Positions 4,191 through 63,834 of a stretch of DNA of 64,000 nucleotides are shown here, in pieces. Both the position numbers and the translations under genes were made by a program. The notes beneath the pieces were generated by a model. That model was not told the origin of the DNA. It was given only the letters and a program-made list of their open reading frames with translations, and ran no database searches. How positions within the stretch are numbered: position 1 is the stretch's first letter; the number at the start of each line of letters is the position of its first letter. The stretch covers positions 93,594,765 through 93,658,764 of the forward strand of contig CM037588.1 of NCBI GenBank assembly GCA_021018995.1, read 5' to 3'. The stretch is from Chloranthus sessilifolius. Its lineage: Eukaryota > Streptophyta > Magnoliopsida > Chloranthales > Chloranthaceae.

Positions 4191-4470
4191 CTTATAGGCA
4201 AAAATCAATTAATCGATTTCAAAATCGATTAATCGGTTTTTACCATTGAAACTCAGCTGCTCGAAATCGATTAATCGGTTTCAAAATTTGATTAATCGAA
4301 TTTAAATAGATTAGTCAAAATTGACTGTTATTATTTTTCCAGGTTTCTCAACTCATTAACATGAGCCAGTCGTTCAATCGAATGATTTCAATTAATCAAA
4401 AATTAAAATCGCTTAATCAATTTCTACAAATTTTGTCAAGTTTTGTACAAATCGATTAATCAGTTTTGAC
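4191..4470 (-). promoter_or_regulatory. Candidate ORF2 promoter of D: TATA-like site with ATCGATTAATCGAT array
   Basis: Between pol and ORF2 of element D, 4203-4470 holds about seven copies of full or decayed ATCGATTAATCGAT, a perfect 14-base palindrome. On the ORF2 side, at 4191-4197 on the minus strand, is CTATAAG, about 250 bases before the ORF2 start. The same palindrome fills 13368-13665 in the LTR of D. This looks like an internal promoter that copies the upstream elements of the LTR. That it drives ORF2 is inference. Confidence 0.55.
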
Positions 4471-4734
4471 AGAAGTGCAAAAATTTTTTACTTCTTATTT
4501 TTTTTTCTTCACTAGCTTCTGTCTTTTTGTTAGGTTTTCTACGGCTTTTAAGTTAACTCCTTACTAACATTTCTTTTGCCTCTTACTACGTATTGCTACC
4601 CAAGAGACTAACTTACAAACAATATCTTCCTCTTCATTCCCTTGGGAAGGTTAAGGTACACATGCAGATTTTCACTTACATCGATATTTAAGTTCACAAA
4701 AATACATGCAATGCTAATCATATGCTCTCAGCTC
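4471..4734. other. Noncoding stretch between pol and the ORF2 array of D
   Basis: AT-rich sequence after the pol stop. I find no LTR, polypurine tract or ORF in it, which is why ORF2 to the left is assigned to the same element. Confidence 0.5.
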
Positions 4735-6538
4735 TCCTCAAATAAGTTCGGATATTGTTCCCTCACATCCACCTAGCGTTTCCAAGTAGCTTCTTCGACC
4801 GGATGATTCTTCAATCTGACAAGCACTAAAGGAATCACCTTCGAGAGTAAAACTTGCAATTTTCTATCCAATATCTGAGCCGCTTCTTCTATCATGGTCA
4901 TATCTTCGTGCATTTTGATCGGTTGACCTCCCAAGATATGGGTAGGGTCATTTACATACTTTCAGAGCATGGATACATGAAACACATTATGTACCCGGTC
5001 AAAAAACAAAGGTAATCCAATGTGATAAGCGACCTCGCCAACTCGACCCAAAACCTCAAAGGGTCGAAGGTAATGGGGACTCAGTTTTCCCCTCTTCCCA
5101 AATCTCATGACACCTTTCATGGGCGATACCTTCACAAACACACGCTCGCCAATGGCATAGTCCACACTCATTCTTTTGATATCGGCATAGCTCTTTTGTC
5201 TGCTCTGAGCTGGCTTAAGCCTCTCTCTTATCATACAAACAACAATGGCATTATCTTCAAGCAATTCCGGTCCCAATACAAACTTTTCACCGGTCTCTTC
5301 CCAATTGATAGGCGATCTACATTGCTTTCCATAGAGAGCTTCATAAGGTGTCATTCCAATGCTCGCTTGGAAACTATTGTTGTATGCAAATTCGATCAAC
5401 GGTAAGTGTTGATCCCATGATCCTTATAATTCAAGCATACACGCTCTGAGCATGTCTTCTGTCACCTAATTTACTCGCTCTGTTTGCCCATCGGTCTGCG
5501 GATGGAACACTGAACTAAAGTCGAATCGCGTACACATGCCTTCTTGAAAATTCTTCCAAAATTTTGAAGTGTATAACGGGCCACGATCAGAGACAATGCT
5601 ACTAGGAATCCCATGTAACCGTACTCTCTCCTTCATATATAACTCCGCGAGTCTCCCTGCCGTATACATTATGTTGTAGGGTAAGAAGTGAGCTGACTTG
5701 GTCAGTCGATCCACGATTACCCAAATGGCGTTGTATCTCTTTACTGTATGTGGTAACCCTACAATAAAATTCATGGAGATTAATTCCCATTTCCACTCTG
5801 GTATGGGTAGAGGCTACAACAATCCAGTAGGATGTTTGTGGTCCACTTTCACCTGTTGACATGTCAAACACCTTGACACATACTTAGCTACGTCTTGCTT
5901 CAAACCTCTCCACCAGTAACTCTTTCTCAAGTCTTGATACATTTTCGTGCTACAGGGGTGGATTGCATATTTCGATTTGTGAGCCTTATTAAGAATAGTT
6001 TGCTGCAGATCGACATCAACTAGAATACAAAGGCATCCCTTGAATAGTAAGGAACCATCTTCTTTCACTAAAAATTCTAGTTTGGTGCCCTCAATCACAT
6101 CTTGTCGGATTTTAGTTAACTCTGGGTCTTTCATCTGTAGCTCGTGAATATGCTCAAAGATCATCGGTCTCACTATGATGTTGGATAAGAAAGCCCCTAT
6201 AGCTTGCACCTCGATATTTGCATCATACAGTGAAAGATCTTCAAACAACTTCCATCTGTGCATCCCCATGATAAGATTAGGTAACTGAGCAGAACCCTTA
6301 CGACTCAAGGCATCTGCCATGACATTAGGCTTGCCTGGGTGATATTGTATGGAGCAATCATAGTCCTTGAGAAAATCCATCTATATGCGCTGCCTCATAT
6401 TTAATTTCTTATGTGTAAATAGGTACCTGAGGCTCTTATGGTCGGTGAAGATCTCAAAGGTCTCACCGTACAAATAATGTCTCCAAATTTTCAAAGCGAA
6501 TATAACCGCTGCTAATTCCAGGTCCTGTGTTGGGTAGT
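4735..6538 (-). pseudogene. Element D pol, 3' half: RNase H end, integrase, chromodomain
   Basis: Reading right to left: the end of RNase H ([18 protein letters not shown] near 6400-6480); a linker and HHCC zinc finger with CLTCQQVKVDHKHPTGLL (5814-6380); the integrase core with IVDRLTKSAHFLPY, IVSDRGPLYTSKFW and HPQTDGQTERVN (5466-5774); the integrase tail with GERVFVKVSPMKGVMRFGKRGKLSP (4962-5399); and a chromodomain-like end with NHPVEEATWK near 4790. This order and ending are those of Tekay/Del chromoviruses, whose chromodomain guides integration into heterochromatin. Stops at about 5813, 5465, 5427 and 4961 each fit a single C-to-T change in a CAG, CAA or CGA codon. The left edge of 6539 is the junction with solo LTR G, which splits RNase H. 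Confidence 0.88.
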
Positions 6539-8194: not shown

Positions 8195-8740
8195 GAGCTT
8201 CGCCAGGTTGCAGTCGATTCCCAAACTTGTCGCGTGGTAGCACTGACTTCGCGAGGATGAGTTAGCATTAAAACTTCAGATGTGGCGGGGTTGCAACTTC
8301 TTGATGCTTTGAGCAGTCGCGAGGTAGATAGTTAAGCTCTCGCTGGATTGAGCTTCACGAGGTTGGATTGCTACTTGTGAATAGCACGGGAACTGCGTGA
8401 GCATTCCATTTCACAATAGATCTTCGCGAGGCTAACTTTGGCTTTGCGAGGCTGCTTTCTTCCTGAACAGCGCGAGAACTGTGCGGGAAGTTCACTTCTT
8501 AATGAAACTTCGTGAGGATCCTCACGATAGCTTTGAGGCTTTTCTGAACTGTGTGATAGCTCCTCTTGACATTTGCATCCCACGACTACTGCGTGACAGC
8601 TGCGCGAGGCAGGATTCTGAAGCTAGTCTGTCACTCAACTGTAAGAGAAGTTGTTGTGAAGTCTTGGGACTTCGTGAGGACTGCGCGAAGTATATTTTTC
8701 TGAATCCTCTGGAGCTTTATCAGCTGCGCGAGGCTTGCCT
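8195..8740. repeat. Palindromic motif array in LTR G (CCTCGCGAGG type)
   Basis: Many copies of TTCGCGAGG, GCGCGAGG and decayed forms such as TTCGTGAGG and CTGTGTGA, irregularly spaced, upstream of the TATA box. The perfect form CCTCGCGAGG is palindromic. Many units differ from it by CpG-to-TpG or CpA changes, as expected for methylated cytosines. Confidence 0.78.
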
Positions 8741-10380: not shown

Positions 10381-10384
10381 AAGC

Positions 10385-11817: not shown

Positions 11818-11819
11818 AC

Positions 11820-14259
11820 TGTGACAGCCAGAATTTTGGTGCCCCAAAATCCGTACCATCGACACTACCCTCGAGGTCGTGCCCTACAAGCCTACATGAA
11901 ACATTCGGTATATCCAAGCAATAGTAAAGTAAACCAAATTACATAAGAACTAATACTGAACTTAATCTCCAGTTCTACAATATAAGTCAAAACACGTAAC
12001 TCAAAAAGATGATTCTGATCTCATGCCACTGCATGAGCAAGAGAACCAACCCGAACCATCAGTGATGACTTAGCAATCACCTTGGATGGTTCGCCAAAGA
12101 ATGTCTCATTTTATATTACATTTTCTCAAAAAAAAGGGTTGGACATGCCAATCCGTACAGTTTCTCTAAAAAAAAAACTATCAAAGTACGCAGGGGTCCT
12201 CTAGAAGAAATCGTCAGGAGGGGACTCTGACTCCTCCCTAGGCATGTAATCTGAATCCTCCTGATTAATGTCTCTCGAAGCAGCAACAGTAGCTAACACT
12301 AGACCTGCGACGTATAGTCTAAAGAGAGAGCTACATCATAGCTCAATAGGGAAACAACAGAGTGAACATATAAATCTATTTTACTCACATATATTCCATG
12401 ACATTAGAAACATGATTTATCAATAAAAATAGTTGGAAAAATAGTTTGAGTTATTGTAAGCATGAACTGAATGCATCTGTTACTCTACATGTGTTTACTT
12501 GTTTTCAACTTGTTGACAAAAGATGAAGATCGGCCTCAAAAACTTAAATCAATAACTTAAATAATCCTCGATGCACTATACTCTCGAGCCCTGATGGAAT
12601 ACCCACCATCGTCATCCAATCAGACTATTTTTCATTCATTTTTTATTCATGTAATACTACCCGGGTCTCTTCCTCATAGGCGACGGGGCATAAAGCTCAC
12701 ATACATCCCCGGGATGTCATACTGGTGTACGGATTGGCCGTCGTACCGATCACGAATATCATGTCGAGTCAGTCATGGGTATACCACCATGTCGGTGGGG
12801 TATTCCCCAAACCTTATATCAAATATGCAATTACATATAATTATTCACCGTGTGATTTGCTAAACATAGTATTTTAGGTTTATTCGATTCTCATTTAATT
12901 AACTTCACATCACTAAGATGTTCACGATTTTCCATACATCCTTGGGATGTAACCAGCTCATATGCATCACTTAGATGCCCTTATAACATTTACACCCCCT
13001 TAGGATGTCACATACTTATAGCATACATATTTCCTTACTTAATGTTCACACACACACTTTAATTTCACATGTTCAGCTACTTTTCAACAAAAACATGCGC
13101 ATCTCTATGCTCTCAACGCATAACTATTCATTTCTATATCACTACATATATGCCATTGTAATTAAAGTACATGTTCAAGGTATTCCCTACTTCACGTATT
13201 TGAATTCCCAAGCGTCAAGGTCCATAGTGGGTTCCCATGCTCGTATTCAAGTGTTCAACCTAAATTACATCATATCACATGCAAAGCATCAAGAACGATG
13301 TATAAAAGAAGGTACAAGGCACTCCCAATACTCTAAGGTCCAAAACAAAACTCACTCAGATACTATCAAAATCGATTAATCGATCACCATATCGATTAAT
13401 CAAATTTCCAAATCGATTAATCGATCCCAAATCGATTAATCAAAATTTCAAAATCAATTAATCGATCTAAAAATTGATTAATCGGTTTTCCCAGACTCCT
13501 CCTTTTCCAGTCACTGGGAGTACCCAGATGATTAATCGATTTCAAATCAATTAATCGGAATAAAAAATCGATTAATCAAAATTTAATTCGATTAATCAGT
13601 TTCGTGCTTCTGTGTTTGTATTTTATCAAAAATCGATTAATCGGTTTAAATTTGATTAATCGATTTTGACAGAAACCCAGCCCTCTTCAGGCATTTCCTC
13701 CAGCTTTTCTCTCTCCATTTTCTCTTTTTTCTATTTCCTTAAATTCTTCAATAGTTCAATAACAGAATCACTAAATCATCCACATCATAATTTACAAAGA
13801 TCTTACCCCAATTCCAAGTATGGGTGGTTCAAGGGTTTGCTTTTAAAAGCTAGGGCTCTTAGCTTGATTCCTTGAATTCATACACATTGCCTCCGGAATT
13901 AATGCTCAAGCATGTCTTCAATTCAAAATCCACACGAAATCCTTTAGCATTTACTCTCTCTTTCCCTCTAAACTCTCTCTCTTCATAAATCCCTAACCAC
14001 CAAAATTTAAGAGAATTAACTTCTCTTTTTCCTTTAAGCTATTTAAATCATTTAATATTTTTTGGTGCAAAACACATACACCCATAGCAGGTGTATGTGA
14101 CCTTATCAAAAGATCCACCTCACAGACCCAAGTATACTTTTCACCTCAAGTCTAGTCTAGCTAAATTATTAAGTTGACTTTCTCTTGGTCCAACTTATGA
14201 CCAGATGAGCATGCATCCCGAGGACACTAATCAAAACTCAAATTTTTAGGGATGTTACA
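11820..14259 (-). mobile_element. 5' LTR of element D
   Basis: On the minus strand the LTR starts TGTAACATCCCTAAAAATTT at 14259 and ends GGCTGTCACA at 11820; TGTAACATCCC is a common start for chromovirus LTRs. It holds an ATCGATTAATCGAT array at 13368-13665. The ORFs inside are short and without recognisable content. The partner LTR is not in the window: it should lie left of element A. Bases 14260-14264 (aaatc) should be one target-site duplication copy. Confidence 0.88.
13368..13665. repeat. Palindromic motif array in LTR D (ATCGATTAATCGAT)
   Basis: About eleven copies of the palindrome ATCGATTAATCGAT or single-base decay forms, about 20-30 bases apart, in the U3 part of the LTR. The same word forms the array before ORF2 of this element (4203-4470). 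Outside these two places I do not see it repeated in the window. Confidence 0.88.
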
Positions 14260-15461
14260 AAATCATAACATAAAAACTATTGCAACCACTATGTTTATAA
14301 GCTACACGCTCATGCATCCATAGGTGCAAAAAGCCTATAAACTATATGCAAGCACAAGAGATTATAGATTCAATGGATTAAGAAAAACAACTTTCATTGC
14401 ATAAAAAGTATTTACAATGCTCAACCCTTAAGACTGCAGTCCTGCATAACTCCTAGACCCTTTACAAGCTTACACAGTCCTTTTGACAGCATGAAATCAG
14501 TCCTATATATTACCAAAGGACTTTGCCAGCAAATGTTGAGCTAAGGAAGAATAAAGGAAAAAGGTGACCTAACCCTAGAAATGACCTGAGCATAGACTAT
14601 CCTCCTGGCTCAGATTAGATTAGGTTATGTTAGATGCCTAGTTTTGGCTATTTTTACAGCTTATATACAATCCACACAATATCTCTGTGCCTTGGCCAAT
14701 CAGAAAATGAAAGAAATAACATCTTTGGAGTTATCGTCATGGTTCATTTATGGCCCAGTATTGCCTCGAGATGTGTGTGACAACTCAGCACATTGGGATG
14801 TGTGCCCTAGATGCTGTGGAACACAAAAAATGTCCTTGAAGTTTGAATATAGTAGCTGGATCTCGAGCTTCGAGTGGTTGCAGTTTTAAAATTTAAATCT
14901 CAAGTAGGTCTCGAGAGGCTGCTCGAGTGGATGATTTAAAGCTATAAACTACCCTGCTGCTTGCTGGCTTCAGATTTGCAACTCAACAGGATCTCGAGAG
15001 GCTACTCGACAAGATAAAAAAGCAGCATTGTAAGTGCTTGAGTGGTTCAACTACAGCTCTACAACTGCTCGAGTGGATAAAGGCTTCAGCTACACAACTC
15101 GAGAGACTTAGATCTACTACTCGATAGGCTATTGTGGCAGCTCGACATGTTTAGTTCTCAATTGCTCGACAACATTTCCTGCTTCAGCAATGTGGTGCTC
15201 GAGTGATTGTTGGCTTTAACAATGAAACTCGACCAGTTGGTGCATCTGCTTGTATGGTTTAAACTTGAGTGATCTGTCAGCTGCTCGAGTGCATGAATAT
15301 TTCAGCCATATCTTCAGCTGCTCAAGTGTGGAATTTTTAGTGTGCATACTACTGTAATGTGCCACTTGAGCAGCTGGTTGGCTACATATATAAAATGTTG
15401 CATTGCTCCATAGCACCTCTTGCTGTAGCATTGATGTGCTCGAGATTCAGGTAAGTGCAGT
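14260..15461 (-). mobile_element. LTR of element E, left fragment
   Basis: Cut at the left by element D and at the right by element B; it continues at 47362. A TATA box (TATATAAG) lies on the minus strand at 14660-14667, and a CTCGAG-type motif array at about 14860-15450 lies upstream of it. The part from 14280 (tacaagct...catccataggt) resembles the same place in LTR B. The U5 end must lie left of element D, outside the window. No coding content. Confidence 0.75.
14860..15450. repeat. Palindromic motif array in LTR E (GCTCGAG type)
   Basis: More than a dozen copies of GCTCGAGTG, CTCGAGAGG, CTCGACAAG and similar, all around a TCGA core, upstream of the TATA box of LTR E. The word resembles that of B but has a different flank (GCTGCTCGAGTGG rather than AACCTCTCGAGAGGTT). 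Confidence 0.75.
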
Positions 15462-17596
15462 TGCTGGTTACAATTGATGTGCTATTATTTTGTTAGAAAA
15501 TTTGGTAAACACAGATGAAAAGTAGAAGTGGAATGGAATGAAATCAGCAGAAAAACAACAATTCTAAACTAAGTGCTACAAGGTCCCGGGCTGTTGTAGC
15601 AAGTTTTTTAATAAGTAAGGATTAGTCCACAGGATAATGTGATCTAATTTTTTGGTAAATCTCCAGATCTGCTACAGATCTGGCTGTTCCTATTTATCCT
15701 AAAAGCAAAACAAGAGAAGAGAGATAAAGTTTTATTGTTTACTTTAAACTAAAAAAGCAAGAACTTAAATCTAATTATGAACAAATTTAAAACCAAACCA
15801 GAGATACAAAGAGAGAATTGTGAGAAATAAAAAATATTTTGGTAAAATTATAATTCAAATATGGGGAATGAACAACTTAGAGAATAGTTTTCACTGTAAA
15901 TCTGATTTGCAGCACAGAGTAGAAGATAGATTTGCAGCATTCCTTTATTTGGCTACAAGCACAAATGCAGGGTAGAAGGATCCAGATCTGCCTTGAGATA
16001 TGGATTAGTCCTAAGGTTATACTTTGTCCACTTGAATGGTCCCAAAGTATCCCATGGATATGATCCAGTCACGGGAGAAAGAAAAAGAACAATAAAACCA
16101 CAACAGATGCTATGAATGCAAGGCTACAAGCTTAGGCATCTGTAGGTCTATAAATCTATGAGGATCAGGTGAAGATAACCAGATCTTATAAATTTAAAAA
16201 ACAAGAAAACCAGTAATTCATTAAATTAAATAATCTCACAACAAATTACTCTTAGATCTGTTGCCTCTACAGCATTCACTCTTCATACAATGCCTTACAA
16301 ATTGAATTACAGATCAGCTATCTCCAGCTATTACAAAGCTTTAGCCAAGCATGTCTAGGCTAAGAAGAGAATAGGGGAAAAGAAGAAGAATAGAAAGAAG
16401 CGGGAAAGCAATTCAAACTTTATAAAAACTCTCGATTTCTCCTCCCCCTTTTAAAACTAAACTCCCTCCTATTTATACACTTCCCCCAACTGTCTCAGAT
16501 CTGTTTTAGCCAATCAAAGGAAAAGGAATCAATTCTGTTAGAAGACCTCTTGATGTGGCTGCATTTCCTCCACTAATTTCTCGCAAACTTGTTAGAATTA
16601 GTTATGCACACGTGAGGGAGTTAGGACAGTTCTCCTTTGTGCCCATGAAGTTCCAAAAATACCCTCTAAGGCTATCAGCACACCTCTGGTCATGTGCATC
16701 AACTCATCGAACCCCAAATCTCTCAGTTCGACAGGTTAAAGCCTCTAATTTTGCACTTCGAGAGGTTCAGAGTTCCATTCGAGAGGTTCCAACTGCTAAA
16801 TTTATCAAATTTGATAGGTTGCTTTGAAGTACTCAACTTCTTCATTGGCTTCAACAGTCCTCTCGACGGGTTAGCTCAACTACTCGAGACTCAGAGTAGC
16901 TTCAGGCATGTAGTCGACAGGTTAACTTGTACTGCTTGAACTCATCAATGCATCTTTAGGCAATCTCTCGACAGGTCCATTTCCAGCATTAGATCCTCTC
17001 GACAAGTCCTTGACAACTTCGCTTTTGCTTGCTCAATAGCACGTAAACCTCTCTAGAGGTTCTAGGAACCTCTCGACAAGTTACTTTTTCAATTGCTTTG
17101 CACTGCAGTACCATTCAAGGTTCATTCTTCATCAAATGTAGTTACTGCTATTTAATCTGCTCAAGCACATATTGCTGCTGCAACCTGGTTTGCTCTAGTG
17201 TGCAACTACACTTTGATCTGCTACTAGTTCCATCAATTGGACTGCTTAAGATTTGTACAGATGCTATGCATGTTGACCTCCCAGCTGCAAGTTGACATGT
17301 TGTTCTATTTAATGCACTGCAGCAGCTCTCCCAAGAATTAGGCACGATCTTTCATCCTCAACAGGCCTTCTAGGACACCAATGCATGGTTCACCATGGTG
17401 TATTCAATGTAGACTCATCAGCTCCTCAGTTTAACAAATGATTCCTTCTCCTTGACTTGAAATTGAGAAATTTCATCACTAAATCATTATTTTCCTACTA
17501 TCTACAAAACATACTTACAAATCATTATTAATTGGCTCAAGAGGTCCAGCAAAGGTCAGGTTAGGAGGTGAAAAATGGTATTTTCATTGATTAACA
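15462..17596 (-). mobile_element. 3' LTR of element B
   Basis: Starts TGCTGGTTACAATTG on the plus strand and ends GATTAACA at 17596, next to the polypurine tract. A TATA box (TATAAATA) is on the minus strand at 16470-16477. The AACCTCTCGAGAGGTT-type array is at 16690-17080. The leader hairpin block is at about 16014-16056. Its partner is 43158-47356. The ORFs inside are shadows. Confidence 0.93.
16690..17080. repeat. Palindromic motif array in LTR B (AACCTCTCGAGAGGTT type)
   Basis: Repeated words such as CCTCTCGACAGGTT, TTCGAGAGGTT and ACTCGAGACTC around TCGA; the most complete palindrome, AACCTCTCGAGAGGTT, is preserved in the other LTR copy near 44740. The array lies upstream of the TATA box. 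The same word recurs in front of ORF2 of this element (22270-22660). Confidence 0.82.
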
Positions 17597-19800: not shown

Positions 19801-19802
19801 AG

Positions 19803-21928
19803 CTAGGCAATCTCAGCTAGGAAAGGCTGCTTGATTGTAGTATGGATCTCAGCCATCCCTCGAATTACATCCCTCCTGATGTAGGGGTTTTCATCCATAG
19901 CTCTCTTGAGGGTGGAGAATAGGGGAATGGGGTTTGAAGAGGTAGAAATCAATGTCCTCTCAGTGGGGTCATCAAAAATATGATATGGAGTGGATGAAGA
20001 TGATAGGATAGAAGGGGAAAGTGGAAGTATAGGTGCCAGCTCCTCCTCGATGGGGTCAGTCTGGGTATTGGAAGAGGATAGGGTGAATTCTATTTGGGTT
20101 GAAATGGTTGTGGAGGTTGATGGAATAGGAAGCAACTCAACAGACTCAAAGTGTGTCTAAGTTGCAGCAATGGTAGTGGCTACTAAAGGGGAGGTCTGAG
20201 GAGGAAAATGTGATGGTGATACAAGAATGAGTGGTGTAGGGGTATGAGGTTGTGTGGTTGAGGTAGATGGGAGTAAAGTGGACCGGATGGACTAGAGGCA
20301 AGTGGCCATGACAGACTAGTTTTCTATATTATTATGAAGTTGAGATTGGATAGATGCAAGAAGGGAAAAAATTTGAGCCAAGGAATCTGGTAAGACGGGG
20401 GTAACAAGTGGACTAGATGAAATGTGTTGGAATGGTGAGGTAGAAGCATGTTGGAATGGAGAAGGTTGTGGAAAATCTGGGCGAGGTGTGTATTCATGCC
20501 CAATGTCTTCCATAATGGAATCAATTAAGGATGAATACCCCTCAGAAGTGTAATGCTCTAAATCTTGGGTATGGATAGGGGAAATAGTAGTACATGGGGT
20601 AGACTCAAAGGGTATATTAGTGAATGGTGAAAATGGGTCAGTGAGTAAAGGGTCCAAGCTTGGAATGGATGGGCTAGATGTACTGGTTGCTGGCTGAAGT
20701 AGTTTGGATTTTCTCTGGTAAGTGGTCTTAATGGTAGATGTGAGCAAGGGCAATGGGTCAATGGTAGGAGGAGCTGACACAAGTGAGGTTGTGGTGGTTG
20801 TAGAAGGTGTGGCTATGAAACTGAGAGGCATAGGTGCAGGTATGAAGGGCAAGGCAATGGATGAAGTGATGATGGCTGGTACAACAACTGTAGGTATAGA
20901 GATTATGGATACATGTGCTGAAATGGTCAAAGGAGAAGTAATTGTAGTGTTGACCACAGTGGCTTCTTGCAAAGGGCTCTCAACCTGCTTCTTCCTCCTC
21001 CCAATCAAGGTCATACTAGTTGACCATGCTTTCTTTCCAAATGATTTAGGAGGCAATGCCTCAGTTGGCTCTCCTACTTTGAATGCATACTTCCCTTGCT
21101 TCAACAGAGTAGTGATAATTCTGTTGTATGGTAAACCTGGCACAATGGGCCATTGAAAAATTAGCCCTTGGAGTAAAAATAAAGGGCATCCACAATGGGG
21201 TGCCTTCTTTCTTATTGATGCCCAGTCATAAAAATAGTCTTCCGCAAAATGGTATCAATGAAAACTAAACTGGGATTCAAATCTCTCCTCATCAAAGACT
21301 CTCCAAATCCAACAATTCCCTAAGTCAAGTGTTCGGCCATGACCCTAAATGATACACTGTCAGGAACTCCTAAACTGCTAGCTGGATCATACTGAAATAG
21401 AACCCCCAACACTAAACCAATGTCCTTGTAATCTACTAGAATCTCCCAATCATCAATCAGAACGACAAGCATAGGGTTAGTTGCCCCTGTTGTCTTCTTC
21501 AGCCTTAAATTCTGATACCACAATTTTACTAATCTGGGGTATACCTTCTCATTCAATGGGGTCAACAGAGGATTCAAAGAAGCCTGTTCCAAATAGGTTA
21601 AAGTGTCACTACACTCCTCTAACTTGGTGAAATAAGGTAAATCAAAGACTGTCTCAGCTATCAGACCCAAAGTATCCACAAATTCATTAGGAGTTGTTAG
21701 AGTCATAGGTAAAATAGGTAACTCCTCTGCAATGTCCTCACTGGTTTTGGCTTTCTTAGATTTCTGAGTGTTCTTGGGTTTGTCCATACTCAACTTCCTC
21801 TTAGCAGGTGGATCCACTTGAGACTGTGAAGCAGCTATCCTACTAGATTTCCTAGTGGATTTGGTAGGAGATTGAATTAAGTCGGACAAAGGGCCCTCAA
21901 ATTGCTCAGGATCGGCCATTAAAAACAT
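19803..21928 (-). pseudogene. ORF2 of element B (PF20167-like extra protein)
   Basis: ATG codons at 21928 (MFLMADPEQ) and 21919. The first 70 residues are rich in Ser, Lys and Arg with KRKLSMDKPKNTQKSKKAK, a possible nuclear localisation signal. Then comes the homology domain with NEKVYPRLVKLWYQNLRL and DYKDIGLVLGV (21320-21750). After a stop and damage at 21143-21320 it continues with LPYNRIITTLLKQGKYAF-like sequence and a long Ser/Thr/Pro-rich disordered tail (20316-21143), then a C-terminal block (19803-20135). ORF2 of C aligns over the first domain and has the same order. The length would be roughly 700 residues if intact. It lies after integrase, as env-like ORFs do, but I see no membrane segment or signal peptide, so an envelope role is unlikely. 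Function unknown. Confidence 0.7.
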
Positions 21929-22166: not shown

Positions 22167-22660
22167 AAAAATATAGACCAATTTAAAATGTAACCTGTGA
22201 GCTAGATAGGAAAGAAACAAAGGAGTTTTTGTGAAGAAGAAAGAGAAGGTTTTGAGCAGAAGCAGAAAATGCTCAAAAGAAACCTTTCGAATGGTTTTAA
22301 AATCCAAAAATACGACTTCAACAGGTTGAAAATTCCAAGAACCAACCTATCGAGTAGTTCATAACAACCAGTCGAATAGATGAAACTACTTGACAGTGCA
22401 AATAACTCCAAAAGATGGGTTCGAGAGGTTTTTCAAACCTCTCGACAAGTTTAATTCCTTCAGAAAATTAGATTCAAGAGGTTACCCCAAACCTCTTGAC
22501 AGGTTCTCTAAACTTGTTGAATCTTCATTAAATCTCTTCAGAGCCTATCAAATTCTCTTTTCTACCTATTGACATGTCTTAGTACCTGTCAAATTCATAT
22601 GAAACACCATTAGATCCTATCGAATAAGATTTCCAACCTCTCGACAGGTCTCAGTTCTTC
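22167..22660 (-). promoter_or_regulatory. Candidate ORF2 promoter of B: TATA-like site with the LTR-B motif array
   Basis: TCTATATTTT on the minus strand at 22167-22177 lies about 240 bases before the ORF2 start. Upstream, 22270-22660 holds repeated words such as GGTTCGAGAGGTT, CCTCTCGACAAG, AACCTATCGAGTAG, CCTCTTGACAGGTT and CCTCTCGACAGGT. They match the array of this element's own LTR (16690-17080), not those of D or C. Promoter activity is inference. Confidence 0.6.
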
Positions 22661-49167: not shown

Positions 49168-49169
49168 TC

Positions 49170-50599: not shown

Positions 50600-53040
50600 T
50601 GTTGACTGCTTCTGGTGTGCTTTGATTATTGGTTGGTGGTGAAAGTTATTTAAAAATCAAAGACAGAGTAAAACAAGGGGTGAATCCAGCACAACTCAGA
50701 AGTCCTAGGCCTGCAAGATACAGGGTCCTTTGTAGCAAGTTTTGATAAGTAAGAGTTTATCCCACAGGGAAAGGTGATCTAAAGCTCCAAGGGAGCCATC
50801 TCTAGTAGTCCCTCCAGATCTGTCTACAGATCTGGCAGTCCTAGAAGGAGGGGAGTTTAAGGTCACTTATTCTAAGTATTCTAATAACTAAACAACAAAA
50901 AGTGTTGAGAGGATGGATGGAGTGTGGAAAATGAGTATAAAAAAGGGTGAGAAGTATGTTATTGAGCCTAGGTCAGAGAAGTTTTGTAACTCAGATTTAG
51001 ATCTGATGTTATAGAAATCCTATCCATAGGCTACATTATCACCTCTGAGGAGAAAGGATCCAACCCATCACTCTGCCATGATTCCACCCTTAAGGCTATA
51101 ACCTGTCCACTTGAATGGTCACAAATTATCCCATAGGGGAGCCACTATCCAGGGATGGGTCAGAACATAACAAGTAAATCATTGCAGGCACTATTTCATC
51201 CAGGCTACCAGCTCAAGAATCCATAGGGAACCTCAACCTCTAAAGTTCTATATGTGGGGCTAAGGCTGTAGGACCATGATAGCCCAGATACATAGAACCA
51301 GCAAGAGATTGAGTACAACCTTCGATCTAGCTATCCATTGCTTGAGCGAGGCTACAATGGTCCAGTCACCAGCCTACAATCTCTAAAACCAGATCAGATC
51401 TAACATCTGATGGTGGATCTATACAAATATGGGTGAGTCTGCCTCTGTACAATCTCTCACCAGGCTTCTACAAGCTCAGATGTAAACAAGAAGGATCCAT
51501 CTTGGATCGATAGATCAGAATCACCCTAAGGCTATAATCTGTCCACTTAAATGGTCACAGACTATCCCAGAGGTTATCCTCCTCACGGAATCCAAAACAA
51601 AACAAGATTATCGCTGCTACCACCATGCTCACAAGGCTACTAGCTCAAGCTCCCATGGGGATTTCAGATCTAGTGGGTCCTGTGGTGGGGCTAAGGCTGT
51701 AGGACCATGATAGCCTAGACACACAGGTCACTTGGATCTGAGTGGCCCTTAGAATCAGTCCTCCATTGCTTTGAAAAACAGCCAAAGCGATGGCGAATCA
51801 CAAGGCAGCAGCCTTGCACAGAGCATCTCACACACAAACAACATTCCCACAAAGTACAGATCCTATTACAGAACTTCCACTGATCTAATTTAAAAACACA
51901 TACAAAGGCATAGCCAGCAAGTGCTGGACTATGGAGAGAAGGAAAGAAAAAGAAAACTACTTACTGCTAAAAAGAAAGAGAAAAGAAAAATAATCTGAGA
52001 TGGGCTCCCAGATGCCTAAACCTAAGCTCAGGTATGGGTTTATATAGCAGTGGGGTGGCGGCACATTAGGGTTAGGAAACCCTAATTTTAATGATGCCAC
52101 GTGGCTTGATAATGATCCTTGGATGCCTCGGGGCATGTGCATGAAGATTTGAGCATGGGAGTGTGTGCCCTAATTGCTGGAAATACCCAGAAGATCCTCT
52201 GCTGAAGAGATGGAAGTTTAGGGTCAGAGCTTCGCTAGGTAGATGTAGTTTCCCAGACTTGTCGCGTGGTAGCTCTTTGTTCTTCGCTAGGAAGATTTGA
52301 CACTGAAGCTTCAGCCGTCTCGAGGTTGCCTTGGTTTGCTCTTCAGGTAGTCGCGCGGTCGATCGGTCTTCGCTGGGCAGCAGTGCGAGAACTTCGCGAG
52401 CACTTCTCTTTACTTGGACTTCATGAGTTACCTCGCAAGGCTCTTCTGAGTTCTGAACTATGCAAGGTTCTATGTCTCAATTGATATTCGCGAGATTGGC
52501 TTTGCCTTCGCCAGGATGTTTTCTTTCTTGAATGGCGCGATAACTGCGCGAGGTGTTCTTCTGAAAACTGCATCCCGCGGTATGCTGACGGTTGTCGAGG
52601 AATCTTGACTCTCTCTCCTCGTGATTCGAGCAACTATGCGAGATTGAGAGAGTGCACTTTGAACTATGCGACATCTTTGGCGATGTGTTCTACTCTTGAG
52701 CTTCATGAGGGCTACACGAGTTTGAGTTTACGAAGCTCTTTAGTCATTCATCGCATGAGAGGTTCTTTGTAAAGCCTTGGGAAGCTCGGTTGAACTCGAG
52801 GCATATTTCTCTGAATCCTCTAAAGCTTGGGTCATTTGCGAGGCTCATTTCAGTCCGGATTGAGTTCATTCTTCTGAGGGATATCTGGTGCCAAAGCAGG
52901 CTCCTTAACAGGATTCTTGGCCTTATTTCACTACGGATTATTACCTACACAAAACACTTAACAAGAACTTATTAGGTGGCTAAGGGTCTAATCAAAGGTT
53001 AAGTTGAGGGGTGAAAAGTGGTACTTTTCAGGTCTTAACA
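50600..53040 (-). mobile_element. 3' LTR of element C
   Basis: Starts TGTTGACTGCTTCTGG on the plus strand and ends GGTCTTAACA. TATA box TATATAAACC on the minus strand at 52037-52046. GCGCGAGG-type array at about 52220-52870. Two leader hairpins near 51095-51140 and 51530-51570. The ORFs in it are shadows of noncoding sequence. Confidence 0.93.
52220..52870. repeat. Palindromic motif array in the 3' LTR of C (CCTCGCGAGG type)
   Basis: More than twenty words such as TTCGCGAG, GCGCGAGG and CTCGCAAGG. Compared with the other LTR (62990-63640) many differences are CG against TG or CA, for example CTTCATGAGGGCTACACGAG here against CTTCGCGAGGGCTACGCGAG there. Confidence 0.82.
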
Positions 53041-54918: not shown

Positions 54919-57900
54919 TTAAAATTTATCCCATCCCATCTTCCTTGCATGCTCTTGTAGGAGAGCCTCTTCTTCTTTCTTCTTTCGTTCCCTCTCTGCC
55001 TTTCTTTGCTCGAGAGTTTTGGGTATGGTAGGAGCCCGAACCCTCATTTTTCTCTTCTTGGGTTCAGGAGGGATCTCCGAAGATTTAGCAGTGGTTGGCT
55101 CAGGGGGTTTGGTGGGAGATTTTCCTTTGGGGCCCTTACCTTTGGAGGCTTGCCCTTGCTGAGGCAGAGGGGGAATAAGAGATGATTGGGTTTGTGCTGG
55201 CTCAGGAGGGGCAACGGGAGATTTGTCTTGGGCTGGCACCTGAGACAGGAGAGGACTTTTCCCTTTTTCTGGTTTAGGGGGAGCCACAGGAGATGGATCT
55301 GGTAATTTCACTATAGGAATGGCAGGGCTCTTCCCTTTCACGGGCTTGCTTAGTGGTGGTGCCTCCTCAGACTGGGCAGATGTTTCTTTTCGAATTTTCA
55401 AAGAGCGACTTGGGGGAGTAGTCCTCTTTGCAAAGAAACTTTTGGCCGAGGATAGGATTGTGCGAGCGGATGAAGGAGCAGCAACAGTAGGTTGGGCACT
55501 GGGATCCGTAGGTGTTGCAGAATCAGAGCCAGAATTAGAAGGAAAGAGCTCAGTAGGGTCTAATCTAAGGGCAGCAGCAGCTTGTCTGCGTTCTTCTTTG
55601 AAAAGTAGGCACCCATGGGGATCATCTTGAGCAGAAGCTCTAGTGACCTTTGGAGGTGGGGATGGAGGGGTCGGCCTTTTGCCTTTTTGGGCTGTAGTGG
55701 CTCTCTTAGAAGTGGGCTTTTTCTTGGAAGGGGTGCGTTTTCTTTTGAGAGCAGGAGAGGGAATAGGGGGGCACTGAGGGAGGAGCAGGAGCTGCAGTAG
55801 GGATTGCAGCAGGAGCAACAGGCTGTGTAGGTACTGCAGAAGGAACCGCAGTAGGCATTTGAGGAGGAACAGGAGGAGCTACCAGAGTGGGGGCTGTGGG
55901 AGTTGTGGGAACAAATTGTGTAGGGCTTGGGGTAGGGGCAGTGGAAGAAGATGGGGCCTCAGGGGGAGCGGTGGCGATGGGGGTGGCCTTTATAGGTTGG
56001 GACAGCAGGAAAGCAACTCTCTGTTCTAAGATTTCAATTTTCTTGTTAGCCCACAGGAGATTGGTATCTGCAAACTCCTTACTGAGTCGGGTGATCTCCT
56101 GAGCATTGTTCAATTTTTTCTCTAATAGCCTGTTGTGCTTTTTCACCCTCTCTGCATTGGCCTTTTCCATCTCAGTAGCCATTCTGTAGTATGTTGCTGC
56201 AGCCTTGTTCGCATTTGATGTCTCTAAAATTGCCTCCCACCCTTTAGAAATATCTCGCAGCTGCTCGTTGTGAGCAAGCTTCAAGTCACTAAGTTTCTAC
56301 AACAAGGGGTATTCGATGGCTTGGCGGAGTTGGGCCATGCCATTGAGAACATCTCTCTTAATATAGGGATTGTCCCTCATGGCATGGAGGAGGGTGAAGT
56401 AGGGAGGGGTGTAGTAGGAGTGTCTGGGCAAGATTGGTAGAAATGGAGTGGAAGGAGGAGATGGTGATGGATCCTGGGGGAGAGAAGTGGGGTTTGTAGA
56501 AATGGTTGGGGTGGTCTGGGTTGAATGGTCAGTGAATTGAGGGGGTGAGAGAAGAGGGGGAATGGAAGGTATGGGTGGAAAATGAAATGAAGGAAGGGCA
56601 GCGGATGTGGATGGTTCAGGGTAAGGGAGGAAGGGGATGGTGAAGGGTTGAACTGGAAGAGTTGGGGTGCAAATAGGGGTGTAATGGGAAAGGTGGATGG
56701 GAATGGAATGGGGTCCGTTGGGTAGAAGTGTTGGTAAATTAAGGGGAGGTAGTATTAGAGGTGGAAGGATAGGGAGAGAGGGAAAGGAGTGGTCGGGTAT
56801 GGTATCATGGAGGAGGAAGGATGGTGGTAAGTCATTGGGGTGGGGTCTGTTGGAACTGGGGAGTCAGAGGTGGAAGGGGGTTGGGTCAATGGGGTGGTGG
56901 GAGGTTGTGTTGGGATTGGTGGGTTTGTCAATGTGTGAAGGATGGATTGTATGGTGGTTATGTCAGTTTGAATTTGGGCTTGGGTCTGTGTGGTGTTGGA
57001 TAGTTGGGTTTGGAGGTCATGTATGAGGGAAAGGATATGAGTAAGGGTATCTGAGGTTGGTTGAGGTGGAGTAGGAGGATAAGAAGGAATAGGTTGGAAC
57101 GGGGAAGTGGGGGCATGATGGAAAGTGGTAGGGGGGGAGGGGGAAGGGTCTGGCGAATGATGTGGTGAAGGGAGAGGAGACTCAGGGAGAGGGATGTCTT
57201 GGGTGGGCAAGGTATCAAGCAAGGTGGTCATGAAGGCTTGGTACCCTGAAGTGGCGGCTAGGTTAAAGTCCAGGGCATGGAGAGGTGGGACTAAGGGTTG
57301 GTCAATAAGGGGTGAGTTTGTGGGAAGGACAGGGGAGGAGGAAGTGGGTAAAGATGAGGCAGGGGTAGTGTGAGAGGTTTTCTTTTTAAGGTAGGTTATC
57401 AAGGGAGGGCTGTCAGGGTGTGGGTCAGATGCTATGGGGAAGACTGGGGTTGTGGATTGAGGTATGGTGGGTGAAGGTGGAGTGTTGTCCTGGGGTTCAA
57501 CACTTTCTTCCCAGGTACGGATAATAGTGGGAGGTGGAATGGAAAAAGGAGATAAAAGAGGGAAAGGGAGAGATGGAATGGGTGAAGAAGGTAGTGGAGA
57601 GGCAAGAGTGGTGGATGGAGGAATTGCTGCAGAAGCAGAGGTGACAGAAGCTCGCGCCATCTTCTTTGGGGCAAGGGTTTTAGCCTTCTTTCTGGGGGCG
57701 GGGGTGGCCTTTGCCACAACAGCTCCCTCTCCCTGCTCTGAGACATTCTAAGCTTCAACCTTCTTCTTCTTCTTCTCGGGATCCATTAGACTTCTGCTGA
57801 TCCCCCATTGTCTTTTAGTAAAAGTGGTGGGAGTGAGGTCAGCAGATAACTCCCCCACTGGTATCTTGTACCCTCCCCTCAGAAGTAGTCTGGTGATGAG

Positions 57901-58654
57901 TCTTCCATAGGGGAGAGTGTGGATTTTTTTTTGCAGCCCCAGCTTCACCATTGTATCCTTCATAGCCTTGAAGATCAACCATGCAGCATTAAATCCATGG
58001 CCCAGAGAGAAGGAATAAAGAGCATCAGCAATTGGTGTCCTCCTTTCTTGCTGATGGCCGGAGCAATAGATATTCTTCCTCAGCACTTGATCAATGAATA
58101 GCAGTTTGAGCTCCAAATCTCTTCTTCTGATGGAGTCCCCTGTGGCTTTCAAGCCTTTGGTAATGGCCTGGGCAATTGTGTCAATGGGGGCACTCACAGG
58201 GGCACCATAACATGCTTGGGATCAGAATCGGTAGGATGCTCATGACTTGACAATTAACTGGGCTAAGCAAAGATCTCAAAATTGTCAACTAATGCAAGGA
58301 GGCTGTTGGGTCATCGACCCTAAGGTGCTAGTAAAAGAGTTGCACTAACCTAGGGTAGGCTAGTGCAGGAATCATTTGCATCAAGGGGAACAACCTAGCC
58401 TTGCGCAAGAACTCGATGGCAGGTGCTGACAACGGCTCAGATTCAAAGAAAGAGATATCGAAAATGGCTTCAGGCCCTAAGGGAATGGAAATGAGGAGCT
58501 CAGAGGGTGTAGAATAATCCGGTGTTGGTGCAGCCATCTCAGGAACCACCTCCTTCCCTTTGTGCTGAGCCGTAGAGGACTTGGCTTTCTTAGGGGTAGG
58601 CTCCACAGCGGCCTTGTCCCTGGCTCTCTTCACAGGTGCGCTTTTAGGAGCCAT
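54919..58654 (-). pseudogene. ORF2 of element C (PF20167-like N-domain, long disordered middle, coiled-coil and basic C-part)
   Basis: ATG at 58654 (MAPKSAPVKRARDKAAVEPT). Lys/Arg-rich N-terminus, then the domain with AIFDISFFESEPLSAPAIEF and YPRLVQLFY; after a damaged stretch (58200-58330) it goes on with FIDQVLRKNIYCSGHQQERR and LPYGRLITRLLLRGGYKIPV (57748-58197), aligned with B and D. Next a Pro/Ser/Thr-rich segment (56755-57717); then EMEKANAERVKKHNRLLEKK and a predicted coiled coil (about 56050-56284); then, in another frame from about 55780, a Lys/Pro/Ser-rich part with KRKRTPSKKKPTSKR and a charged end KAERERKKKEEEALLQEHAR (54919). At least three frame breaks. The basic clusters suggest a nuclear, nucleic-acid-associated protein. 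No signal peptide or membrane segment, so not an envelope protein. Function unknown. Confidence 0.65.
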
Positions 58655-59240
58655 CACAACTCTCCTTGGTGAGTGTGCAGTTGAAATTTTAAAAGGAAAT
58701 ATCAGGAGCTAAGTCTAACCCTAGAAGTTAGGGTTCTATTTAATTGGACGCACGGTGGATCTCAAGAGCTCTTAACAGGGGGTAACTATTGATGGAAGCT
58801 TTAAGAATAAAAATCCAGAATTTCAAAGTGAACAATGATCTGTAGACAAGATGCAGAAGGAGAGAGGTTGAGAGGAGTGGAAGCTAGGGTTTCACTGGTA
58901 GGAGAGGAAAGAGAAAGCAGTAAGGAAAAGCAGCGCGGGGTGGGATTTAATTATCGCGAGGCTCGACGCGCTTTGAAAATGTCTGCTCGCTGGCTAGGAA
59001 TGAATGGGTCACGAGATTAGATGTTCCTTTAAACTGCGCAAGGTAGCCCACCCAGTTATATCTGAAACTCGGGACAGCAAAACAAAGTAGCTCTTTATAA
59101 ACTGCGCGAGATGGGACCAAACCCATTATTTAGAACCCCGCGATGGCTTAACTGAGGCAGATTTCACTCACCCACTAGTCAGCTTTTTGACCCTGACTTT
59201 ATGGGTGGATTCTCTCACAGACTCTCTTCCAGGGACACCC
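58655..59240 (-). promoter_or_regulatory. Candidate ORF2 promoter of C with the LTR-C motif array
   Basis: Between gag and ORF2. At about 58930-59150 occur GCAGCGCGGGG, TCGCGAGGCTCGACGCGC, CTGCGCAAGG, CTGCGCGAGATGG and CCGCGATGG, the GCGCGAG word of this element's LTRs. Closer to ORF2, TTAAATAG (minus strand, near 58735-58743) is a weak TATA candidate. This is the third case of a matched LTR and ORF2-upstream array. The short plus-strand frame at 58835 is not gene-like. Confidence 0.5.
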
Positions 59241-59469
59241 ATAAGCATTATAAAGCATTCACAAATTCTCATACTCTCAAGGCATTAAAGTCACACATCA
59301 TGCAAAGCATTCAAATACTACATCATCATTTAATCACTTGAAATTATCACACAGGGGGAGCTGGTATAAAAGTAGGCATTAAAGCACTAAACTCAAATTC
59401 CAACAAGATTGCTAACTATTCCTATAAACTGTAAAGTACATATTATACAAAGGTGCACAATTCTTATCA
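59241..59469. other. Junction where pol is missing in element C
   Basis: Between the gag end (SSDPEGDLSLN and stop at 59470) and the ORF2 promoter. In B the corresponding gag stretch continues to protease. I see no protease, RT or integrase fragment here. Confidence 0.6.
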
Positions 59470-61010: not shown

Positions 61011-61347
61011 ACAAGCACACCAACAGCAAGGAAAGCTTCTTGCAGGCACATTGTAAAAGAATAATTGTACACTAACAAATTTATCTAACTAGTTTACAGC
61101 TATTCAAAGAATACATTTATCCTAGATACTGCTAAAAAAAAATTGTTTAAGAAAGATAGACAGAGCTTTAAAAGTTAGAGAGTTTGCAAACAGAGGTAGC
61201 TAAGCTCCAATTGCAGTCCAACTATCCTTCACTGCTGTTGTCTAGATCTGCAAGAAAGGTTCAAAATTATGTCAGCAGTATCAATTATTTGCATGTGCAA
61301 AGAATACTAAGAATACAAAAACTAAGGGTCTACTAATAGATCATCTT

Positions 61348-61365
61348 TCCCTGGCAGCGGCGCCA
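61348..61365 (-). other. Primer binding site of element C (tRNA-Asp)
   Basis: On the minus strand TGGCGCCGCTGCCAGGGA, one or two changes from the tRNA-Asp complement. Six bases inside the LTR edge at 61372. Confidence 0.92.
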
Positions 61366-61371
61366 AAAACT

Positions 61372-63834
61372 TGTTGACTACTTCTGGTGTGCTTTGATTA
61401 TTGGTTGGTGGTGAAAGTTATTTAAAAATCAAAGACAGAGTAAAAAAGGGGGTGAATCCAGCACAACTCAGAAGTCCTAGGCCTGCAAGATACAGGGTCC
61501 TTTGTAGCAAGTTTTGATAAGTAAGAGTTTGTCCCACAGGGAAAGGTGATCCAAAGCTCCAAGGGAGCCATCTCTAGTAGTCCCTTCAGATCTGTCTACA
61601 GATCTGGTAGTCCTAGAAGGAGGGGAGTTTAAGGTCACTTATTCTAAGTATTCTAATAACTAAACTATAGAAAGTGTTGAGAGGATGGATGGAGTGTGGA
61701 AAATGAGTATACAAAAGGGTGAGAAGTATGTTATTGAGCCTAGGTCAGAGAAGTTTTGTAACTCAGATTTAGATCTGATGTTATAGAAATCCTGTCCAGA
61801 GGCTACATTATCACCTCTGAGGAGAAAGGATCCAACCCATCACTCTGCCATGATTCCACCCTTAAGGCTATAACCTGTCCACTTGAATGGTCACAAATTA
61901 TCCCATAGGGGAGCCACTATCCAGGGATGGGTCAGAACATAATAAGTAAATCATTCCAGGAACTATTTCATCCAGGCTACCAACTCAAGAATCCATAGGG
62001 AACCTCAACCTCTAAAGTTCTATATGTGGGGCTAAGGCTGTAGGACCATGATAGCCCAGACACATAGAACCAGCAAGAGATTGAGTACAACCTTCGATCT
62101 AGTTGTCCATTGCTTGAGCGAGGCTACAATGGTCTAGTCACCAGCCTACAATCTCTATAACCAGATCAGATCCAACATCTGATGGTGGATCTATACAAAT
62201 ATGGGTGAGTCTGCCTCTGTACAATCTCTCACCAAGCTTCTACAAGCTCAGGTGTAAACAAGAAGGATCCATCTTGGATCGGTGGATCAGAATCACCCTA
62301 AGGCTATAATCTATCCACTTAAATGGTCACAGACTATCCCAGAGGTTATCCTCCTCACGGAGTCCAAAACAAAACAAGATTATCGCTGCTACCACCATGC
62401 TCACAAGGCTACCAGCTCAAGCTCCCATGAGGATTTCAGATCTAGTGGGTCCTGTGGTGGGGCTAAGGCTATAGGACCATGATAGCCCAGACACACAGGT
62501 CACTTGGATCTGAGTGGCCCTTAGAATCAGTCCTCCATTGCTTTGAAATACAACCAAAGCGATGGCGGATCACAAGGCAGCAGCCTTGCACAGAGCATCT
62601 CACACACAAACAACATTCCCACAAAGTACAGATCCTATTACAGAACTTCCATTGATCTAATTCAAAAACACATACAAAGGCATAGCCAGCAAGTGCTGGA
62701 CTATGGAGAGAAGGAAAGAAAAAGAAAACTACTTACTGCTAAAAAGAAAGAGAAAAGAAAAACGATCTGAGATGGGTTCCCAGATGCCTAAACCTAAGCT
62801 CAGGTATGGGTTTATATAGCAGTGGGGTGGCCGCGCATTAGGGTTAGGAAACCCTAATTTTAATGATGCCACGTGGCCTGATAATGATCCTTGGATGCCT
62901 TAAGGCGCGTGCACGGAGATTTGAGCATGGGAGTGCGTGCCCTAATCGCTAGAAATACCCAGAAGGTCCTCTGCTGAAGAGATGGAAGTTTAGGGTCAGA
63001 GCTTCGCTAGGTAGCTATAGTTTCCCAGACTTGTCGCATGGTAGCTCTTTGCTCTTCGCTAGGATGATTTGACACTAAAGCTTCAGCCGTCGTGAGGTTG
63101 CCTTGGTTTTCTCTTCAGGCAGTCGCGCGATCGATCAGTCCTCGCTGGGCAGCAGCGCGAGAACTTCGGGAGCACTTCTCTTTGCTTGGACTTCGCGAGT
63201 TACCTCGCGAGGCTCTTCTGAGTTCTGAACTGTGTGAGGTCCATTGTCTCACTTGATCTTCGCAAGATTGGCTTTGCCTTCGCCAGGATATTTTCTTTCT
63301 TGAATTGCGTGAGAACTGCGCGAGGCGTTCTTCTTCTGATAACTGCATCCCGCGACGACTGCGCGATAGCTGTGTGAGGAATCTTCTGAAGCTCTCTCTC
63401 CTCAGCCGTTCTGAGCGAACTGCGTGAGATTGAGAGAGGTTTGCTTTGAACTACGCAACACTGAGCGATGTGTTCTACTCTTGAGCTTCGCGAGGGCTAC
63501 GCGAGTTTGAGTTTTTGAAGCTCTTCAGTCATTCATCTGCGCGAGAGGTTGCTGTAAAGCCTTGGGAAGCTCAGTTGAACTGTGCGAGGCATATTTCTCC
63601 TGAATCCTCTAAAGCTTGGGTCAACTGCGCGAGGCTCATTTCAGGTCTGAATTTAGAGTTCATTCTTCTGAGGGATATCTGGTGCCAAAGCAGGCTCCTT
63701 AACAGGATTCTTGGCCTTATTTCACTTCAGATTATTACCTACACAAAACACTTGACAAGAACTTATTAGGTGGCTAAGGGTCTAATCAAAGGTTAAGTTA
63801 AGGGGTGAAAAGTGGTACTTTTCAGGTCTTAACA
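61372..63834 (-). mobile_element. 5' LTR of element C
   Basis: Starts TGTTGACTACTTCTGG and ends GGTCTTAACA. TATA box TATATAAACC on the minus strand at 62809-62818; motif array at 62990-63640 upstream of it; leader hairpins near 61865-61910 and 62305-62345. It is the least decayed copy of the CCTCGCGAGG array in the window, for instance CCTCGCGAGG intact near 63203. Confidence 0.93.
62990..63640. repeat. Palindromic motif array in the 5' LTR of C (CCTCGCGAGG type)
   Basis: More than twenty words such as CTTCGCGAG, CCTCGCGAGG, CTGCGCGAGG and GGCTACGCGAG. High CpG content against a CpG-poor background. Confidence 0.85.

Follow-up and report, generated by a model that had tools for sequence, protein, structure and literature searches.

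The window analyzed here is a 64,000-nucleotide stretch of Chloranthus sessilifolius DNA (GCA_021018995.1, contig CM037588.1), which is filled by a nest of plant long terminal repeat (LTR) retrotransposons that we designate by letters. Three of these elements, D, B and C, carry arrays of a palindromic word in two places, their LTRs and the region upstream of an open reading frame called ORF2, and the word is matched within each element. In elements elsewhere in the genome, word class goes with ORF2 class; the arrays are CpG islands, and part of them show helical spacing. These features suggest that the arrays are bound by a dimeric protein, most likely ORF2 itself, in a self-recognizing autoregulatory loop, an explanation that we regard as somewhat probable.

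Matched palindrome arrays in D, B and C

The arrays and ORF2s of D, B and C all lie on the minus strand. The D LTR array (13368..13666, AATCGATTAATCGATT type; model and called sites) has a CpG observed/expected ratio (o/e) of 2.76, and the array of the D word upstream of ORF2 (4203..4470) one of 2.19. B has a left LTR array of the AACCTCTCGAGAGGTT type (16690..17085), apparent in the sequence as well as by model and called sites, a right LTR array (44390..44790; model and called sites), and an ORF2-upstream array of the B word class (22270..22660). The C arrays, with a CCTCGCGAGG-type word, are the left LTR array (52220..52880; sequence, model and called sites), the right LTR array (62990..63640; model and called sites) and a thin ORF2-upstream array with five called sites (58930..59150). 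D ORF2 (2888..3943) consists of open pieces 3233-3943 and 2888-3229, split by a stop, and its left end is cut by element A, whose 5' LTR appears to have truncated it. The first open piece of B ORF2 is at 21323..21928, with further pieces to about 19806, and C ORF2 (57751..58654) comprises open pieces 58331-58654 and 57751-58221.

An initial search for nonpalindromic motifs yielded broad motifs. Palindromic models fitted separately to each LTR array, with no word supplied, recovered rATyrATyrATy for D, AACyTsTCGAsArGTT for B and CyTCGCGArG for C; the D array also fits ATTAAT. These models were scanned over the non-LTR part of the stretch (1742 overlapping 250-bp windows, 45,130 unmasked bases). 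For each of the three elements, its own ORF2-upstream array ranked top of the 1742, with a score that none of 500 dinucleotide-shuffled versions of the region attained. In reverse, the ORF2-upstream models found their best windows in the remaining 64 kb within their own LTR arrays (D, 13351; B, 44526 and 16826; C, 63101 and 52326). Because only about 180 separate 250-bp windows fit the unmasked bases, we estimate that luck would produce three such top placements with a chance on the order of one in a million. The match of ORF2-upstream arrays to their own LTR word, proposed in an earlier sequence-only reading of this DNA, thus exceeds chance in all three elements and in both directions.

That reading also held that words differ between families. 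Instead, they follow class rather than strict family lines: one word is common to C and G and another to A and A2, and the words of B and H are related. The B ORF2-upstream array is also the first choice of the H model. Weaker cross-signals come from the G and A models, which beat all 500 shuffles of the B upstream array with z-scores of 4.5 and 4.8, versus 28.5 for B's own model. Models of A, A2 and E, which are without an ORF2 in the window, gave no non-LTR peak of similar height (highest scores 8.8, 6.6 and 4.7), and the top location for E, at 47351, is E's own LTR continuing.

Word classes and ORF2 classes in the genome

When the genome (2.17 Gb, 32 contigs) was searched with the D upstream array, 68 matches were obtained from 40 scored of 896 candidates. 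A search with the PF20167 (Transposase_32) profile gave 13,856 candidates, and all 150 of those scored are above the cut-off, including loci L009-L048. The best 30 loci (L009-L038) are mutually related, and we take them to be Sirevirus-like, since we recognize copia reverse transcriptase (RT) text in L009 and a polypurine tract/LTR junction in L018. Because the best PF20167 matches are these Sirevirus-like Ty1/copia 3' ORFs, the same ORF family appears to be present in both LTR-retrotransposon superfamilies.

A model trained on L018 was applied to the 30 Sirevirus-like loci, which are related copies and so do not represent 30 independent cases. At least three sites occur upstream of ORF2 in 29 of them and at least two downstream in 28, with both present in 27. 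Site density is 10.9 per kb upstream and 5.0 downstream, versus 0.05 and 0.07 in other parts, and LTR arrays were found in L018 and L022. De novo models of eight of these loci reveal a clear ACG..CGT palindrome in five; for L009, L014 and L034, the best de novo model is AT-rich at the widths tried.

We compared ORF2-upstream models with downstream parts in a matrix of 15 elements, consisting of B, C, D, four of the 30 loci, and eight further loci that we picked from the 150 for varied profile coverage. The scores form blocks according to ORF2 class: Sirevirus-like; CGCG (C, L044, L045 and L047); B; D; and L048, whose word is GTCGATTAATCGAC. Sirevirus-like elements, Athila-type elements and one further element, all with ORF2 genes of the PF20167 type, have arrays in both places as well, and their four or five word classes go with ORF2 class. 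The own-model score is at least 8 in 13 of the 15 elements. The misses are L043 (-0.05) and L046 (6); the upstream model of L046 is poor, whereas its downstream part receives scores of up to 80 from class models. Among the 15 downstream parts, the models of L045, L048, B, C and D score highest on that of their own element; for the others, save L046, the best score falls on a different element of the same class. The scores across blocks include 31 for the L048 model on the D LTR, where the words are similar, 22 for D on L043, 13 for L046 on L048, and 12 for L044 on B.

L048 appears to contain two different ORF2-like frames (1678-2722 and 5453-6070), with VVRLFYQNM in one and YPRLVRLLYANM in the other, which is further downstream; these are perhaps two nested elements.

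Relatives of B provide a second comparison. Of 37,990 candidates for B ORF2 in the genome, 150 relatives were scored, and ten elements (T1-T10) were chosen that have mostly open frames and ORF2s 64-72% identical to that of B. Their upstream CpG segments have o/e values of 0.50-0.91, versus 0.00-0.33 alongside. All ten upstream models give scores of 24-41 on the B LTR and do not exceed 10 on the LTRs of C, D, L044, the Sirevirus-like elements and L048, several of these models being weakly supported by their own penalized likelihood. On its own downstream stretch, the model scores 22-55 in T1, T5, T6, T8, T9 and T10, and -3 to 0 in T2, T3, T4 and T7. The T3 LTR starts ~280 bp before the end of the stretch, T4 and T7 carry inverted C-type sequence, and no LTR was recognized in the T2 downstream stretch. 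The B-type word is thus in the 3' LTR of all six relatives, of the ten, in which that LTR could be assessed. Models of the C class reach 15-21 on T6, which indicates that word classes are not wholly separate.

Array turnover and possible copying

The upstream arrays might be copied LTR pieces, or both arrays might be functionless products of tandem repetition or mutation. Several observations fit such a by-product. Tandem-repeat annotation covers A2 and parts of A, D and H. In alignments of LTR against ORF2-upstream sequence, for which the best 12 matches per pair were considered, the two D arrays align over ~100 bp in both orientations and with several different offsets (76% over 106 columns, E 2e-15). 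Nearly all of the aligned sequence is within the arrays, though one match extends ~15 bp beyond the LTR array. Copying between the D arrays is therefore possible. Among the best 12 matches for B, however, those internal to the arrays are at most 33 bp long, and C has none with an E-value below 0.36. The proposal that upstream arrays are LTR fragments, which the sequence-only reading had itself raised as a difficulty, thus fails for B and C, and copying may apply to D. The spacers in B, B-upstream, C, G and E share little information, sites are nearly absent elsewhere in the Sirevirus-like loci, and the arrangement recurs in several lineages. Given this evidence, a by-product is the least probable explanation that we consider, and a very improbable one.

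Arrays turn over although their word persists. The B LTR array does not align with those of T1, T6, T8 and T9, whose LTRs match that of B on both sides, and identity between G and the right LTR of C is 65.5% in the array and 85.3% in the flanks. The two B LTRs are 91.6% identical over 1939 aligned bases (the part beyond H excluded), and the two C LTRs 93.9% over 2441. CpG differences within these pairs show no consistent protection of arrays (B, 6/32 in arrays versus 11/22 outside; C, 36/113 versus 12/37). Between the two C LTR arrays, 10.1% of non-CpG sites differ, versus 2.7% in the rest of the LTRs; this excess could reflect repeat misalignment or different templates during reverse transcription.

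CpG islands, TATA boxes and helical spacing

The arrays have CpG o/e values of 0.54-2.76, and those of the remaining LTR are 0.15-0.21 in A, B, C and H and 0.73 in D. In the Athila-type loci L044, L045 and L047, CpG o/e in 200-bp steps does not exceed 0.4 along 7.3 kb save for two islands, one upstream of ORF2 and the other ~6.4-7.2 kb along, where the LTR array lies. A TATAWAW sequence is present 172-221 bp downstream of the LTR array in B, C, G, E and H, and 356 bp downstream in A, with a chance of 0.12-0.47 of occurring in stretches of such length. No TATA box was found downstream of the LTR array in A2 or D.

In A, A2, B, H and B-upstream, the distances between consecutive site centers cluster at multiples of ~10.5 bp, a feature that the sequence-only reading did not mention; the mean cosines are 0.92, 0.95, 0.82 (0.91 in the right copy), 0.71 and 0.72. 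This phasing was reached by none of 5000 jittered sets for A, A2, B and H and by six of 5000 for B-upstream, for which the test gave 0.028 at a stricter site threshold. The pooled phasing of 11 arrays, with 148 spacings, is 0.365 versus 0.050 +- 0.058, and a scan of periods from 6 to 25 bp has its pooled maximum at 10.25-10.5. When A, A2 and D are removed, the pooled value is 0.305 versus 0.062 +- 0.067 (1/5000), with B, H and B-upstream as the source of the signal. Out of sample, five of six ORF2-upstream arrays are phased (L041, L042, L043, L044 and L047, with counts of 33, 177, 81, 20 and 173 out of 4000), and L044 and L047 pooled, with L045 left out, give 1/4000.

Palindromes could also act as nucleic-acid structure, in which case array transcripts would form hairpins that feed small-RNA silencing or have another RNA function, with no specific protein. 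RNA folding of ten arrays had a mixed outcome. Folding is more stable than that of dinucleotide shuffles in D (z -9.5), E (-5.6), D-upstream (-5.5) and B-upstream (-4.2), but resembles shuffles in A (-1.0), C-upstream (-1.0) and H (-1.3). Small RNAs are reported in excess at palindrome clusters in maize Sireviruses (Bousios 2016, as related in PMC10760457). Hairpins, however, need neither helical spacing nor one word at two places, and we judge this explanation quite improbable.

ORF2 proteins and a possible self-recognition circuit

D ORF2 is homologous to B ORF2 (E 8e-8), as is C ORF2, and ORF2 homology thus spans D, B and C despite an identity between the D and B RTs of 30% over 82 residues. 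Basic stretches near the ORF2 N-termini would, in our reading, fit a nuclear protein. A PDB sequence search with the ORF2 alignment gave no matches, and pieces of D and B ORF2 used as queries against protein databases gave 305 and 473 candidates, none with E <= 0.001. Scans of viral contigs with D ORF2, B RT and D integrase pieces detected no relatives.

A dimeric DNA-binding factor is suggested by palindromes that lie on one side of the helix ahead of a promoter, together with a second array ahead of one gene. We propose that the arrays are cis-regulatory modules for such a protein, whose site would be a CG-centered palindrome. The LTR array, which is upstream of the TATA box in most Athila-type LTRs, would drive or protect the main transcript, and the ORF2-upstream array would do likewise for an internal ORF2 promoter. 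In published Sireviruses, copies of the motif in the linker were reported in nine of nine elements with the env-like gene (ENV) and in none of four without it (PMC2829016). This association and the correspondence of word and ORF2 classes make the ORF2 product the first candidate for the binder, so that each element class would recognize its own two promoters. The outcome would be an autoregulatory loop, which may also counteract silencing. The shared binding partner by which the sequence-only reading explained how words are kept in step is a reasonable proposal because part of the arrays are helically phased and a TATA box is nearby in five LTR families; the word class also goes with the ORF2 class. 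The partner itself is something that we infer.

Alternatively, host transcription factors might bind the arrays, with each class having recruited a different factor that is used at both the LTR and an internal ORF2 promoter. The CGCG core of C-type words and the TTCGAA core of A-type words presumably resemble known plant or animal factor sites. Comparison of Sirevirus motifs with a plant database is reported to have given mainly sites of stress-related factors, and the four published ENV-less Sireviruses retain LTR arrays (PMC2829016). The latter fact means that an element's own ORF2 is not needed for an LTR array, and leaves room for host factors or for action in trans. However, the word follows ORF2 class across unrelated LTRs, the published linker copies occur solely alongside ENV (PMC2829016), and the CG-containing palindrome that all classes retain would be better explained by one protein family than by a set of unrelated host factors. 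Binding by host factors therefore seems unlikely, though well worth considering.

In addition to the ENV-less Sireviruses, several results weigh against ORF2 as the binder in a two-promoter loop. Words and ORF2s could be linked through common descent alone. No known DNA-binding domain was recognized by Pfam in the D, B and C ORF2s. Their PF20167 matches are below the curated cut-off of 45 bits in D (17.6) and C (22), and the B ORF2 pieces have no match to this family. An AlphaFold prediction for a D ORF2 piece from a three-row alignment has a mean predicted local distance difference test score of 41.6, and we left it uninterpreted. Between the ORF2-upstream arrays and ORF2, no robust TATA box was detected. 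Phasing is absent from C, G, C-upstream and E taken together (0.078 versus 0.079) and from L045, a close copy of L044 (2481/4000). It is not significant in the D LTR array (1866/20000); D-upstream gives 704/20000, the D word having been picked after the spacings had been seen. In five of the first 30 Sirevirus-like loci, the values are weak (-0.06 to 0.41). In eight D copies, words are no better conserved than spacers (87.4% versus 87.1%).

Other arrays and the nest of elements

Further LTR arrays in the window were defined by models and called sites, and that of E by the sequence as well. Minus-strand arrays are those of G (8195..8740), which has a C-type word recovered as CyTCryGArG, A (2165..2415), whose recovered word is CTnTTCGAAnAG, and E (14860..15450), whose word is CTCGAG. 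Plus-strand arrays are those of A2 (28150..28379, CTTTKCGMAAAG, partly tandem), recovered as CTTTkCGmAAAG, and H (45363..45833, AACCTATCGATAGGTT type), recovered as AwCnTwTCGAwAnGwT. Most recovered palindromes in the window contain CG. Reading the sequence and calling sites confirmed the array positions first proposed, and the words then printed hold as consensus sequences, but not as literal strings, exact copies being scarce. The window contains two exact copies of ATCGATTAATCGAT, one each of AACCTCTCGAGAGGTT and CCTCGCGAGG, six of CTTTKCGMAAAG, eight of GCTCGAG (five in E), and five of AACCTATCGA (four in H and one in the B ORF2-upstream array).

D, B and C are of the Ty3/gypsy type, as judged from Retrotrans_gag, RVT_1 and SH3_Tf2-1 matches and primer sites. 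D has an SH3_Tf2-1 match 3' of its integrase and what we take to be a Met-type primer site at 11806 (one mismatch), and we presume it to be Tekay/Del-like; in the piece 4776-4961, Pfam recognized no chromodomain. An Asp-type primer site, TGGCGCCGTTGCC, beside the LTR is presumably a mark of Athila elements, and is found in A at 792 (no mismatches) and in C at 61353 (one mismatch). It was not found in B with up to two mismatches allowed, and B is placed with A and C as probably Athila-type through homology.

No ORF2 is visible with the LTRs G, A2 and H. E is interrupted on its right by B, and E sequence resumes beyond B. H is an LTR of ~2.06 kb on the plus strand (45096-47158) inside the right LTR of B, with GTATT flanking both ends. 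C has gag and ORF2, but no pol is visible between them (58930-61088), and thus C looks like a pol-less derivative that has retained both arrays.

Comparison with known systems

The two-place anatomy was already published in 2010 for Sireviruses, a direct precedent that the sequence-only reading did not cite. These elements are described as having CpG islands and clusters of CG-rich palindromes, specific to each element, in LTRs ahead of a promoter region, and also upstream of the env-like gene where that gene exists (Bousios et al. 2010, PMC2829016). The D, B and C arrays are similarly palindromic and mostly CG-containing, with many copies in the LTRs, and, as in other elements that we studied, additional copies upstream of an env-like ORF. 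In B, C, G, E, H and A, the LTR copies precede a TATA box, and the Sirevirus-like PF20167 loci of this genome carry motifs in both places, as the published elements do. The motif is called Sirevirus-specific within Ty1/copia (PMC2829016), whereas the elements described here (Athila-type and D) are Ty3/gypsy, with ORF2s that belong with PF20167; D, B and C do not have the Ty1/copia pol that characterizes Sireviruses. Also different are the words in the window (CTCGCGAG, TCTCGAGA and TCGATTAATCGA), the partial helical spacing, and the correspondence of word and ORF2 classes. Searches of the open PMC literature, which mostly excludes subscription journals, listed no title or abstract concerning matched arrays in Ty3/gypsy elements. 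Within this scope we did not find in print that such arrays occur in Ty3/gypsy elements, that the ORF2 family is shared, that words correspond to ORF2 classes or that the spacing is helical.

Additional ORFs of plant LTR retrotransposons are reported to reside between pol and the 3' LTR, as ORF2 does here (PMC7264820, PMC11728184). The additional ORF of a sunflower Athila element has a partial PF20167 match and a predicted nuclear signal (PMC11728184), and Grande gene23 has its own promoter and a nuclear product, but is antisense, unlike the sense ORF2s (PMC7264820). Excerpts of these two papers mention no matching DNA arrays.

With the arrays, a specific binding site can be predicted for each class of ORF2. 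If ORF2 binds these sites, the retention of this gene by unrelated LTR elements would be explained, and the proteins would form a series of natural, CG-centered and possibly methylation-sensitive DNA-binding specificities. We suggest, more tentatively than for the window itself, that plant env-like 3' ORFs could be diversifying self-recognition DNA-binding regulators common to Sireviruses, Athila-type and chromovirus-like elements, each clade co-evolving with a CG-centered palindrome at both promoters.

VANC proteins of Arabidopsis VANDAL elements offer a parallel, in that an element-encoded accessory protein is reported to go with clustered, short, noncoding motifs that differ between related families (PMC5735166, PMC10398659). 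VANDALs, however, are DNA transposons, and their VANC21 motif, YAGTATTAY, which builds up through tandem repetition, differs from the words described here in not being a CG palindrome (PMC5735166). Six ORF2 pieces had no match to the VANC domains DUF1985 and DUF287 at E-values up to 10, with filters that drop most weak matches. Element-encoded factors that shape the methylation of LTR elements are left open in PMC12844716, where VANC is the example given. If our proposal is correct, the arrays and ORF2 would constitute an element-specific activation or anti-silencing circuit that is the LTR-retrotransposon counterpart of VANC.

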